50,059 nucleotides of DNA from contig JAGVXG010000003.1 of NCBI GenBank assembly GCA_018303885.1, forward strand, positions 1 through 50,059, read 5' to 3'. The translations under genes were made by a program, and so were the position numbers. This document shows positions 4,015 through 37,797 of the stretch, one piece after another. Within the stretch, counting starts at the first letter, position 1, and each line of letters opens with the position of its first letter. Below the pieces are notes generated by a model that searched no databases, was not told the DNA's origin, and worked only from the letters and a program-made list of their open reading frames with translations. The stretch is from Candidatus Pacearchaeota archaeon (GTDB lineage: Archaea; Nanobdellota; Nanobdellia; Pacearchaeales; GW2011-AR1).

Positions 4015-4934
4015 TGGAAATAGATAAGGATAAACTTAAGAATTTCTTGATGTCAATAAAAGACAAAACAAGTATAACTGCCTTAGAGCTGATTGAAAAA
4101 GACTTTTACCTTAATATCCTGCTTTCAAAATTGAATTTTGGGGGCTATGTGTTTAAAGGAGGAACTTGCTTGGCTAAAGCGTATCTTGATTATTTCAGAT
4201 TTTCAGAAGATCTTGATTTTACTTTTGCTGATCAGAAGTTATGGCAAGGTAAACCAACAAAAAGCATAAAGAAAATTTGCAAGGAAAAAATCAATGCTTT
4301 TGGAGAGCAACTTGAAAAAATAGGATTAGAATTTAAATTTGATAAAACAGATATAAAATATGTTCAGATAGGAAGCAGTAATAAACTTGTAACTTTCAAA
4401 GTTCATTATATTTCAGTTTTAACAGGAAACCCTTCCTTTATTAAGGTTCAAATTAACTTCTTAGAAAAAATTATATTTGGCACTCAAACAAAAGAACTGC
4501 TTCCTTTAATTAAACCAAATCAATTTACAAAAGAGGATCAAATCTATTTTAAAGAATTTCTTGATTTTTACAAGCCAATCAAAACAAAAGTTTATGACAT
4601 TAAGGAGATAGTAACTGAGAAAACGCGCTCATTGTTAACAAGAAAAGCAATAAAATCAAGAGACGCTATTGACTTGCTCTTCATCTATCAAAAATTTAAT
4701 ATAAAGCCACAAGACTTCTTGAAAGAAACAAAAGAAAAGCTTCTTTTCTCAATAACTACATATAGTAAATACAAAGATAACTTGCTTTTGACAAAAGAAA
4801 AACTTCAAGCCTTAAAGTTTCAGTATAGTGAAGTTCGCCAATTGGTAATGAAACCCTTCAATAAAGAAAATTTTGATGCTTATATCAAAGAGCTTAAACC
4901 TTTATTGATTGAGTTGGCTGAAGAGATTGATTAA
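4014..4934 (+). CDS. abiEii: AbiEii-family nucleotidyltransferase toxin
   Basis: A 306-residue protein of the AbiEii/AbiGii nucleotidyltransferase family. The signature is clear: FKGGT near residues 47-51 and RFSEDLDF near 62-69, with D66 and D68 as metal-binding aspartates. These toxins transfer nucleotides to tRNA or other targets and are neutralised by the AbiEi partner just upstream. The gene overlaps abiEi by one base and is followed 12 bases later by a gene on the same strand, which may be co-transcribed. Length is typical for the family. No sign of inactivation. Confidence 0.85.
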   Translation: MEIDKDKLKNFLMSIKDKTSITALELIEKDFYLNILLSKLNFGGYVFKGGTCLAKAYLDYFRFSEDLDFTFADQKLWQGKPTKSIKKICKEKINAFGEQLEKIGLEFKFDKTDIKYVQIGSSNKLVTFKVHYISVLTGNPSFIKVQINFLEKIIFGTQTKELLPLIKPNQFTKEDQIYFKEFLDFYKPIKTKVYDIKEIVTEKTRSLLTRKAIKSRDAIDLLFIYQKFNIKPQDFLKETKEKLLFSITTYSKYKDNLLLTKEKLQALKFQYSEVRQLVMKPFNKENFDAYIKELKPLLIELAEEID

Positions 4935-31117: not shown

Positions 31118-32317
31118 CTATATTTTCTTCCCCATCAATATCTTTTCCTTCAGATTTCTTATCTCATTGATTATGGAATCGACGAGGTTCTCATTCTTAA
31201 ACAAGGGTCTTAAAGATTCGCCGTCAAGATTAAATACTCTGTCAAGAGTCTTAAAATTTTCCATGATTAATTCTGCATCTTTTTCAAAAATATTTGTTTT
31301 TCTGAGGATTCTTGTGCCTTTTGGAGATATCGGCCTGTCATGAAGCTCTGCAAACAGCACGCGAAGTACGCTCGATGTTTCTAACAAAAAATCGAAGTTG
31401 ATATTTTCCAGTATTTTATCAACTTCTGTATATCTTGAAACAAAATAATCAAGAATAATCTGCTCTCTTTCTTTGCTGAGATTCTTTGTGAGCTCTTTTA
31501 ATCTCATGCTTACGATTGTTCCTTCTTTACCTAATTCAATTAAATATCTTCGAACTATATCCGAAATTCTCCTGACCATTTCCAGCGTTTGTAACACACT
31601 GCAAACGTCACTCATAGTCGTAAGATTTGTTATCTCAAGGATGTTCAAATGTGAAAGAAGGTCATTAAGCATGTCTACCTGCTTTTCAAGTATCTGTAAG
31701 GTTTCAGCCGCCCTCCTCAAAATTTCAGAAGTTTCTTCAAGAAAATAACTCTCGTTTTTAAAATAAAGCGTTATTTTATTTCTTCTTTCTGAAACAGCAA
31801 TCGTTATTGTTCCGAATTGTTTGGCAGTTCTTTCTGCTGCCTTGTGTCTTGTTCCTGTTTCCTGTGTAGAAACCTTTGCACTCGGTGTTAAAAGAGTATT
31901 TGCGTAAAGAATTTTTTTTAAATCCTGTGAAAGAATTATGGCGCCGTCCATTTTAGCCAGCTCTACAAGCTTTTGTGGGCTGAATCTGCAGTTAATTTTA
32001 AATCCTCCTTCTAAAATGCCTTCTATATTTTCTTTTTCAAGTACAATTAATGCGCCCATTTGGGCCCTAAGAATATCATCAAGAGCAGTTCTTATCGCAG
32101 TTCCTGGAGAAAAAATCTTCAAAACATCGAGAAAATCCTTTCTTTCTAAATCAAATACGCTTGCAAAATCAGTGCTCGGGCCTAAATTATAAAAGGCTTC
32201 TTTCAAATCAACTTTAGAAGTAACGTCTTGCTTTACATCTCCCGGAGTAATTATTATTTCAAAATCTTGTTTTAGTCCAGATTCATTGATACGAGCCTCT
32301 TTTTTTTCATCCATCAT
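31118..32317 (-). CDS. disA: DisA-like diadenylate cyclase
   Basis: A 399-residue protein with the DAC domain at ~65-195: MDGAIILS with the DGA motif (124-126) and ETGTRHKAAERTAKQ with the RHK variant of RHR (157-159). Then comes the DisA linker domain (MSDVCSVLQTLEMVRRI) and a C-terminal region (~340-390) aligned with the helix-hairpin-helix of bacterial DisA. The Gly-rich hairpin that contacts DNA is missing there (FKNENLVDSII). About 55 extra residues precede the DAC domain. It should join two ATP into c-di-AMP. Archaeal c-di-AMP enzymes are usually of the DacZ type, so the DisA layout is unusual. The TATA box is ~22 bases upstream. Confidence 0.88.
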   Translation of the reverse strand: MMDEKKEARINESGLKQDFEIIITPGDVKQDVTSKVDLKEAFYNLGPSTDFASVFDLERKDFLDVLKIFSPGTAIRTALDDILRAQMGALIVLEKENIEGILEGGFKINCRFSPQKLVELAKMDGAIILSQDLKKILYANTLLTPSAKVSTQETGTRHKAAERTAKQFGTITIAVSERRNKITLYFKNESYFLEETSEILRRAAETLQILEKQVDMLNDLLSHLNILEITNLTTMSDVCSVLQTLEMVRRISDIVRRYLIELGKEGTIVSMRLKELTKNLSKEREQIILDYFVSRYTEVDKILENINFDFLLETSSVLRVLFAELHDRPISPKGTRILRKTNIFEKDAELIMENFKTLDRVFNLDGESLRPLFKNENLVDSIINEIRNLKEKILMGKKI

Positions 32318-35785: not shown

Positions 35786-36529
35786 TCATCTCTTTTTTTT
35801 CTTCTTCAGATTCTTTCTAGCTTTATGTTTCTTAAAAAGCTTCTTAAAAAACTTTTTTCGTGGAATTTTTTTCTTTTTTATTTTTACAGGTTTTATTTTT
35901 TTTAATGTTTTTTTCTTTATTCTAGCCAGTTTTTGGGAACGTTTTTTTGCTTCAATTTCCTTTCTTTCTTTTTTCATTTCTTTTGATTTTTTCTTTTCTA
36001 GAACTTGATTTTCCTTAGCTATTTCCTGCTGCACAAATCCTAAATCTTTTTTTAGTCTTTCTAAATTTCTTTTCATTTCATTTATCATCTTAGTATTATC
36101 TCTCATAACCAGAATAGAACCGCATTCAGTACATGTAAAATTATTGAATAGAGCATTTTCTTCATTAAGTTCAACATGGCATTTCTCGCAGACATAAAAT
36201 CTCTTAGTTTCCCTACTCTTAATCTGATGTTGCAAATTATCCATTTTTTTTAGCAAATCATTTCTAATGAACTCTAAAGATTTTAAGATTTCAATCTTCC
36301 AAAAATAGGTATACCATCCTTTTCTTTTATCTTTCTTTCTTATTGAGGAAACAAGCCCATAATCTGAAATTTTATATAAAATATTTCTTGTTTGATTTAT
36401 TGTCAGGTTTAATTTCTTGGCAATGATGAACTCATTAACATGTTTATGTGTATCTAGCAAGTCAACAAGATCCTCAGCTGGTTTGCCGGCAATAAGGGCC
36501 ATAGCTTCTTTGAGAAATTTTTTTAACAT
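35786..36529 (-). CDS. tfe: Transcription factor E (TFE-alpha) with long basic tail
   Basis: A 247-residue protein. Residues 1-80 are the winged helix (VDLLDTHKHVNEFIIAKKL, NQTRNILYKISDYGLVSSIR, RKGWYTYFW). The zinc ribbon uses Cys114, Cys117, Cys133 and Cys136. TFE helps RNA polymerase open the promoter. Usual archaeal TFE is about 170-190 residues. Here residues ~150-180 add a coiled coil and 180-247 a Lys/Arg-rich tail with few other residues. The TATA box GGTATTTATTCG lies 20-30 bases upstream; beyond it begins the tandem hairpin array. Confidence 0.93.
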   Translation of the reverse strand: MLKKFLKEAMALIAGKPAEDLVDLLDTHKHVNEFIIAKKLNLTINQTRNILYKISDYGLVSSIRKKDKRKGWYTYFWKIEILKSLEFIRNDLLKKMDNLQHQIKSRETKRFYVCEKCHVELNEENALFNNFTCTECGSILVMRDNTKMINEMKRNLERLKKDLGFVQQEIAKENQVLEKKKSKEMKKERKEIEAKKRSQKLARIKKKTLKKIKPVKIKKKKIPRKKFFKKLFKKHKARKNLKKKKKR

Positions 36530-36560
36530 CTAAAGATTAAAAATTATTCGAATAAATACC

Positions 36561-36790
36561 TTTCGGTTTTCAACTTTGTTGAAAATCGTTTACGAAATTT
36601 CTAATTTCAGTTTCGGTTTTGATTTATCAAAAACGTATGCAGAATTTCCTAATTCTAGCTTCGGTTTTCAATTTTATTGGAAAACGTTTACGGAATTCCT
36701 AATTCCAGTTTCGGTTCTGATTTATCAAAAACATACACGAAAAATCTTCATTTTTCAGTTCCTGTTTGCAATTTTCATTTGTAAAAATAA
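36561..36790. repeat. Tandem double-hairpin array, 4 full units plus a relic
   Basis: Units start at 36561, 36611, 36659, 36709 and (relic) 36759, spacing 50, 48, 50, 50. Each unit reads TTTCGGTTT, a first hairpin, CGT-type spacer, a second hairpin, AG. First hairpins: TTTTCAAC/GTTGAAAA (unit 1), TTTTGAT/ATCAAAA (2), TTTTCAAT/ATTG-G-AAAA (3), a GAT/ATC form (4). Second hairpins: GAAATT/AATTTC (36594-36608), AGAATT/AATTCT (36641-36656), GGAATT/AATTCC (36692-36706), GAAAAAT/ATTTTTC (36739-36756). Arms change together between units. It lies between the divergent TFE and coiled-coil promoters, in a 318-base gap without a real gene. Confidence 0.8.
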
Positions 36791-36810
36791 AGCTTTTTAA
36801 ACCTGAGCGC

Positions 36811-36847: not shown

Positions 36848-37420
36848 ATGGGACTATTTGGAAAAGATAAAAAAGAGGAAAAGAAAAAAGACGAAATTCC
36901 ACAACTACCTTCTCTCCCAAAATTGCCTGAATTTCCTGGATTCGAAGAAGATTCAACTCAATCAATGCAAATTCACAGGCTTCCAAGCTTTCCTTCTGGC
37001 TCTTTGGGAACAAAATTTTCTCAGAATACTATAAAAGAAGCAGTAACTGGGGAAGAAAGAGGTGATTTTTCTAATGAAGATGCAAATGATTTCGAAGATG
37101 AAGATGTGGACACGATGAGAGTGATGCAGAAACCATTAAAAAAACCGCTTACAGAAGAACTGGGAAATAGGAGATTTCCCTCGGGGTTTTCTGGGGGAAT
37201 GGCTCCAGAACAAGTGTTCATAAGAATAGATAAGTTTGAAAATGCAATGAGTATTTTTAATCAAGCTAGGAAAAAAATTTCAGAAATAGAGGCGACTCTT
37301 GAAGAAATAAAAGGAATAAAGGAAAAAGAGGATAGAGAGTTGGAAGCCTGGGAAAACGAAATCAAATCAATGAAAGATCAAATAGAAAAAGTTGATAGGG
37401 ATATCTTTTCTAGAGTATAA
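36848..37420 (+). CDS. Uncharacterised protein with Pro-rich region and coiled coil
   Basis: A 190-residue protein. Residues 1-15 are basic (MGLFGKDKKEEKKK). Residues 17-60 are rich in Pro and Leu (IPQLPSLPKLPEFPGF). An acidic stretch (~70-95, NDFEDEDVD) follows, and ~125-187 form a coiled coil beginning VFIRIDKFENAM. I recognise no family. Its stop overlaps the next start by one base (TAATG). The pair may be scaffolding proteins; this is inference. Confidence 0.75.
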   Translation: MGLFGKDKKEEKKKDEIPQLPSLPKLPEFPGFEEDSTQSMQIHRLPSFPSGSLGTKFSQNTIKEAVTGEERGDFSNEDANDFEDEDVDTMRVMQKPLKKPLTEELGNRRFPSGFSGGMAPEQVFIRIDKFENAMSIFNQARKKISEIEATLEEIKGIKEKEDRELEAWENEIKSMKDQIEKVDRDIFSRV

Positions 37421-37797
37421 TGGCTACCAAAAAAAGTGTTGATGCAAATGAAAATTTAATACACATAAAGCTTGAACGTGGAGAAGCCTTAGAATCAAAG
37501 AGAGATGTGCTAGCATCACAAATCGCGCTTTTAAAAATTCTAAAAAAAGTAAACGCTTATAGGGTATATAGAGCTAGAGATTTTGAATTGAAAATAGAGC
37601 TTTACAAAAAAATGGTGGGATTGAAAACAAGCTTAAGGAATTTAGAAAAAACCCTTCCAAAGTTAAAGATTCCAAAAACGCTAAACAAAGAAGAACAGCA
37701 TGAAAAAAAGATTCTTAAGACAGAAGCCGGTGATTTAAGTATAGAAGGACAATTACAGGAAATTCAAAGGAAGCTTGAAGAGTTGCAGAGAAGATGA
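37420..37797 (+). CDS. Uncharacterised coiled-coil partner protein
   Basis: A 125-residue, mostly helical basic protein. The central segment LASQIALLKILKKVNAYRVY and the C-terminal QGQLQEIQ-like heptads (EGQLQEIQRKLEELQRR) predict coiled coils. It overlaps the preceding gene by one base, so the two proteins are made together and probably form a complex through their coiled coils (inference). Confidence 0.7.
   Translation: MATKKSVDANENLIHIKLERGEALESKRDVLASQIALLKILKKVNAYRVYRARDFELKIELYKKMVGLKTSLRNLEKTLPKLKIPKTLNKEEQHEKKILKTEAGDLSIEGQLQEIQRKLEELQRR

Follow-up and report, generated by a model that had tools for sequence, protein, structure and literature searches.

The intergenic DNA between the divergent promoters of the TFE alpha gene and of a coiled-coil operon in a Candidatus Pacearchaeota archaeon (GCA_018303885.1) contains a tandem array of double hairpins, which we interpret, with a probability of about 0.4, as a locus-specific, non-transcribed tandem inverted-repeat DNA element that is retained as a torsion-sensitive promoter spacer. 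The DNA analyzed here (the window) is the whole of contig JAGVXG010000003.1 (50,059 nt; contig C12 of genome G000), part of a 720-kb genome in 17 contigs that is 85% complete and of which 701 kb were covered by our genome-wide scans. For comparison, TFE upstream regions were drawn from about 100 relatives bearing the names Pacearchaeota or Nanoarchaeota, all of the genomes being draft metagenome assemblies. TFE, a factor that helps RNA polymerase to open DNA, is encoded on the minus strand at 35,786-36,529 (PF02002, E 2.3e-11; ATG at 36,529), and the operon starts at 36,848 on the plus strand with two genes for coiled-coil proteins of 190 and 125 aa (36,848-37,797) that have no family assigned and keep the same neighbors in relatives.

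Structurally, the array comprises four units of 48-50 bp at 36,561-36,758 (plus strand) and a decayed fifth at 36,759-36,793, with a unit layout of TTTCGG box, hairpin 1, a linker of roughly 5-8 bases, hairpin 2, and AG; Tandem Repeats Finder reports it at 36,561-36,732 with a period of 48-50. Unit 1 (36,561-36,610) has its hairpins at 36,564-36,588 and 36,594-36,608, unit 2 (36,611-36,658) at 36,614-36,635 and 36,641-36,656, and unit 3 (36,659-36,708) at 36,662-36,686 and 36,692-36,706, whereas unit 4 (36,709-36,758) has an intact hairpin 2 (36,739-36,756) and a broken hairpin 1 (TTCTGAT/ATCAAAA, with a C-A foot). The first-pass annotation had counted five units: four are present, and the fifth is a remnant of the hairpin-1 part only, placed by positional alignment with a partial last unit in the related genome G009, that abuts the operon promoter, has a TTCCTG box and lacks the feet. 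All of the arms quoted in that annotation are there, both in hairpin 2 (GAAATT/AATTTC, AGAATT/AATTCT, GGAATT/AATTCC, and GAAAAAT/ATTTTTC) and in hairpin 1 (CAAC/GTTG, GAT/ATC, and CAAT/ATTG), but the loops (TCT, TCCT, CCT, CTTC) and boxes (in order, TTTCGG, TTTCGG, CTTCGG, TTTCGG, and TTCCTG), which it described as constant, vary among units. A repeat search pairs 36,562-36,654 with 36,660-36,752 (82% identity over 93 nt, spacing 98 bp), and units 1 and 2 thus resemble units 3 and 4, a pairwise likeness explained by tandem duplication and in line with the earlier proposal that the array grew by doubling a pair. Identity is 84% between units 1 and 3, 78% between units 2 and 4, and 68-78% for the remaining pairs; by hand count, four of the eight substitutions separating units 1 and 3 amount to two pair changes on both sides. 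Unit spacing is variable (about 40-50 bp), and helical phasing is absent.

Positionally, the array fits between two core promoters with no bases to spare. Of 80 relatives, 65 have a CGAAA motif no more than 60 nt from the TFE start codon, 52 of them at a distance of 36 nt from the ATG, in a consensus context, A-CCGAAA-GG-TATTTATT, that we take to be the BRE and TATA box of a leaderless gene. In the window, this core promoter spans 36,551-36,566 on the minus strand (BRE CCGAAA at 36,561-36,566, TATA box TATTTATT at 36,551-36,558), and the operon is preceded on the plus strand by a TATA-like box, TTTTTAAA (36,794-36,801), that is conserved in relatives. On the opposite strand CCGAAA reads TTTCGG, so unit 1 has the TFE BRE itself as its left end, and the TTTCGG boxes are copies of this promoter edge rather than a motif in their own right; the foot of hairpin 1 in unit 1 contains the CG of the BRE. 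The array therefore begins exactly at the TFE BRE and its right end abuts TTTTTAAA, confirming the previously noted location between divergent promoters. Lying between the BRE and the opposite TATA-like box, it is upstream of both promoters and, judging from promoter geometry, would fall outside both predicted transcripts. Another occupant of the same spacer is found upstream of TFE in GW2011_AR19 (L102), where a MITE-like insertion with long inverted ends (GGCTCTGTCCGGAATT / AATTCCGGACAGAGC) sits between the core promoters, which implies that this spacer tolerates foreign DNA.

Energetically, the array region folds as single-stranded DNA with a z-score of −5.1 (0 of 200 shuffles reach the real fold), compared with −3.0 and −2.0 for RNA of the plus and minus strands. 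DNA folding energies of the successive units, starting next to TFE and ending next to the operon, are −10.3, −8.7, −8.5, −4.4, and −1.4 kcal/mol (z −4.5, −4.9, −3.3, −2.0, and +0.5), and in most arrays, here and in relatives, the first unit is well folded and the last is the weakest. Nowhere else in the 701 kb scanned are short hairpins packed as closely: the array has six per 230 bp, and the maximum elsewhere is four. Double hairpins show no genome-wide excess (39 observed versus 34 in one shuffle), which argues against a dispersed family in G000. As a more general feature of this genome, short hairpins (stem of 7 or more) are about twice as frequent in every class of intergenic DNA as in shuffled sequence, and divergent intergenic regions are not richer in them than the other classes; torsion-driven hairpin enrichment at divergent promoters generally was consequently rejected for G000, and a general torsion explanation is weakened. 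Separately, three consecutive short hairpins lie directly upstream of an apparent split tRNA gene (L168, about 4512-4570).

Comparatively, in most relatives the same two core promoters stand 20-50 bp apart, with no array or significant structure in between, while arrays of one to five units occupy the TFE locus in at least five genera of Pacearchaeota: G003, G004, G005 (degenerate), and G009 in the same genus, and G137, G073, G013/G097, and G114/G081 in others (unit borders placed by eye). Units of these relatives share the feet (CGGTT and AAACG, the most conserved letters of the unit) and linker, and their arms are different yet paired. In an alignment of hairpin 1 from nine units, 96% of cells are paired and five pairs are altered on both sides; none of 500 shuffles matches the pairing or the covariation score, and versions slid out of register are 30-49% paired, a generous control since the structure was drawn on the very sequences tested. 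Pairing is thus kept through two-sided changes between species as well as between units, as the first-pass annotation had described for the units; for hairpin 2, whose columns are not alignable, pairing was judged by eye and by folding. A covariance model built from the nine units (R1) matches nothing in the scanned 701 kb of G000 but the four units of the window, and a model built without window sequences (R2) ranks the same four first, with E-values, rough because calibration was shortened, of 2.2e-7 to 0.005 and 0.38 for the next match; unit 2 scores best with either model. Neither model nor a unit BLAST finds a second copy of the array in those 701 kb. Across 180 family genomes, R1 recovers the TFE loci of five genomes, all in its training set, plus three matches elsewhere (two in G118 and one in a G009 tRNA intron), close to the chance number at the threshold, and matches to the feet pattern away from TFE are not above control. 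R1 misses or weakly scores the units of G004, G005, G013, G097, and G114, which are therefore counted as members by their position and design. On the refutation test proposed in the first-pass annotation, similar paired units do exist in relatives, though at the TFE locus only and with many relatives lacking any.

Mechanistically, we posit that the TFE BRE was the seed of the array, that units would multiply via tandem duplication between TTTCGG copies, and that arms may be rewritten in blocks through replication template switching, by which pairing would be kept. A retained array would then work as DNA, as a spacer between back-to-back promoters: its short-loop AT-rich palindromes, to go by their folding potential, could extrude under the negative supercoiling between divergent genes, and extrusion of the first hairpin in unit 1 would be in competition with the binding of TFB/TBP, bringing TFE expression down at high torsion. 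A DNA-level role is favored because the array lies between divergent promoters and outside the expected transcripts, with a first stem that shares its CG with the BRE. The recurrence of one design at one spot in at least five genera and the clear ranking of the window units by R2 speak for this reading, as do the DNA fold exceeding that of either RNA strand, the exact span from BRE to TATA-like box, and the hairpin-1 covariation. So, too, do the gradient of folding from first to last unit and the likeness of unit 4 to a G009 unit, 84% identical where TFE is 64% identical. Against it stand the relatives that have the same promoters and no array, the unphased spacing, and the lack of a hairpin excess in divergent regions.

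Evolutionarily, the array is dispensable and fast-changing in some relatives and conserved between others. That it is not needed follows from the many relatives, sister species among them (L047, L054), that have both promoters without it, and the TFE tree requires eight gains or losses, at least four of them forced by well-supported branches. Locus L047 is an empty site, whereas L056, with a TFE 96.5% identical, has one unit between TTCGGTCT repeats, a picture that loss between tandem copies would produce as readily as insertion. Between L045 and L046 (94%), flanks are nearly identical and the arms of both hairpins wholly different, and between L048 and L066 (84.5%), common unit types appear in changed order. 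Whole-arm change between close relatives fits template switching, a mutation process with evidence for creating and maintaining hairpins (PMC8794818). Compensatory changes are commonly taken as a mark of selection for structure, but as this process can make and repair a hairpin in one event (PMC8794818) and replacement between sister species looks block-wise, the compensatory arms are no proof of the selection to which they had been taken to point. At the other extreme, G114 and G081 differ at 0 of 136 bp from BRE to TATA box and at 35 of 568 (6%) in the neighboring gene (p about 2e-4, assuming independent sites), which counts in favor of the retained DNA element, although this is a single conserved sister pair and recombination could account for the identity.

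The same tempo makes a neutral origin a serious possibility, nearly as likely as the torsion-sensitive spacer. Under this alternative, the array is a hairpin minisatellite that arose by slippage and duplication from the TFE promoter edge, owes its pairing to template switching alone (quasipalindrome correction), and is tolerated because the DNA separating the core promoters is free to change. The patchy distribution on the TFE tree, the empty, arm-replaced, and reordered loci, the decay of units towards the operon, a published mechanism (PMC8794818), and the roughly twofold enrichment of short hairpins in all intergenic classes of G000 all suit it. It accounts less well for the invariance between G114 and G081, for feet retained in units that are not promoters, and for likeness of linker and hairpin 2 across genera (window unit 2 is 80% identical to a G073 unit), which drift should have erased. 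Compared with promoter minisatellites (VNTRs), the array likewise has tandem units of 48-50 bp, species-variable number, and block duplication, but keeps two hairpins per unit although arm letters change. With quasipalindromes remade by template switching (PMC8794818) it shares paired arms that change together, block-wise, in close relatives, and it differs in being tandem, with a conserved frame that several genera have at a single promoter.

A more ambitious version of the DNA-level role is a structural switch, in which negative supercoiling would drive the extrusion of BRE-footed hairpins and so control the binding of TFB/TBP, torsion would thereby feed back on TFE, and the array would be selected as structure and rebuilt repeatedly with new arms; we regard this as unlikely. 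If expression is affected, though, the locus would be a case of a general transcription factor controlled through DNA shape, in a group of archaea whose genomes are very small and whose known regulators are few. It is also a natural experiment on the evolution of paired arms, with wholly different arms on one two-hairpin frame at one locus in close relatives, a comparison by which selection for structure can be told apart from template-switch repair.

Somewhat less probable still is a mobile element of palindromic type, similar to MITEs, REPs or RPEs, for which the conserved TTTCGG of the TFE promoter would serve as the target and be duplicated on insertion. The clean empty site at L047 against the single repeat-flanked unit at L056, similar units in distant genera with gaps between, and a dispersed two-hairpin palindromic element in relatives of genus g17 would all be expected of such an element. 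A single locus, with no second copy in G000 and other matches in the 180 genomes near chance, would not, nor would units 1+2 and 3+4 as block duplicates or a hairpin-1 foot in common with the BRE. REP/BIME sequences are short imperfect palindromes, tandem or paired, in intergenic DNA, scattered in high copy number and frequently associated with a Y1 transposase (PMC3733652, PMC12306157). The array resembles them as short intergenic palindromes in tandem and differs in occupying a single locus, in a genome (85% complete) where the Y1 transposase family PF01797 was not found; identity as a REP/RAYT element was rejected on these two grounds, and among relatives the presence of Y1 transposase shows no clear link to arrays.

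Two proposals of the first-pass annotation fare worse. A repeated structured RNA, expressed from a hidden promoter and titrating a protein, would gain from the plus-strand fold and the hairpin-1 covariation, but is improbable given that the core promoters on either side both have the array upstream of them, that DNA folds more significantly than either RNA strand, that loops and linker are not constant, that the few wobble pairs (GU/AC, hand count) favor neither strand, and that no Rfam family fits. The slimmest chance of all goes to an operator array whose unit feet, CGGTT and AAACG, are read by a dimeric transcription factor: the feet are the most conserved letters, yet they are not symmetric half-sites (the left one is the BRE), their spacing is variable, their pattern away from TFE does not exceed control, and such a factor needs no pairing of inner arms, which nonetheless pair in unrelated sequences, the wholly different arms of the close pair L045/L046 making a dyad read by one protein unlikely.

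Several known identities were rejected. At gathering cut-offs, Rfam families are absent from the window and from eight relatives, excluding a known RNA family; the best score in the window is 23 bits where the gathering cut-off is 47, and the CRISPR-DR50 match there is weak and far below its gathering score. The array shares tandem units and one-end decay with CRISPR arrays and has neither spacers nor a constant repeat, its units running head to tail, so the earlier judgment that it is no CRISPR holds. A replication origin was discarded, since 85-110 kb separate cdc6 from TFE in G009, G008, and G012 and the two are on different contigs in G000. A virus link was discarded as well, a degenerate pattern having matched 40 viral contigs whose E-values under the unit model were all 0.73 or higher. 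A dispersed TTCCT-loop motif of other genera was also dropped: in G052, the three matches inspected beside start codons (L198, L208, L212) turn out to be Shine-Dalgarno sequences seen from the opposite strand, in g17 the motif belongs to a separate palindromic element, and the remaining genera are near control level.

That element of genus g17 (G026, G098, G118) is a dispersed two-hairpin palindrome with 8-13 pattern matches per genome (e.g., TTTAACTCGACCACGCTTGGGCGAGTTTGTCAAAAAATTTCCTATTTTTTGTTC; loci L209, L214, L215, L204, L211, and L217), in which the arms of hairpin 1 vary but still pair. Several copies are in-frame parts of open reading frames, where they code for EQKTGNFLTNSPKRGRVK-like peptides, a likeness to Rickettsia palindromic elements. 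In G118, two near-identical stretches of ~50 bp (L182 and L185), with a ribosome-binding site inside, precede the start codons of unrelated genes. In G009, an apparent tRNA gene with anticodon CAT and a long intron (L191, the same as L186; contig C2, about 75975) carries in that intron a two-hairpin stretch, GATTTGAGCTTGTTCAAAT...GAAAACTTCCTGTTTTTAG, resembling an array unit at a chance-level E-value. Elsewhere in the window, 31,118-32,317 encodes a DisA-like protein (PF02457 with a PF10635 linker), which suggests cyclic di-AMP synthesis in a small archaeal genome.
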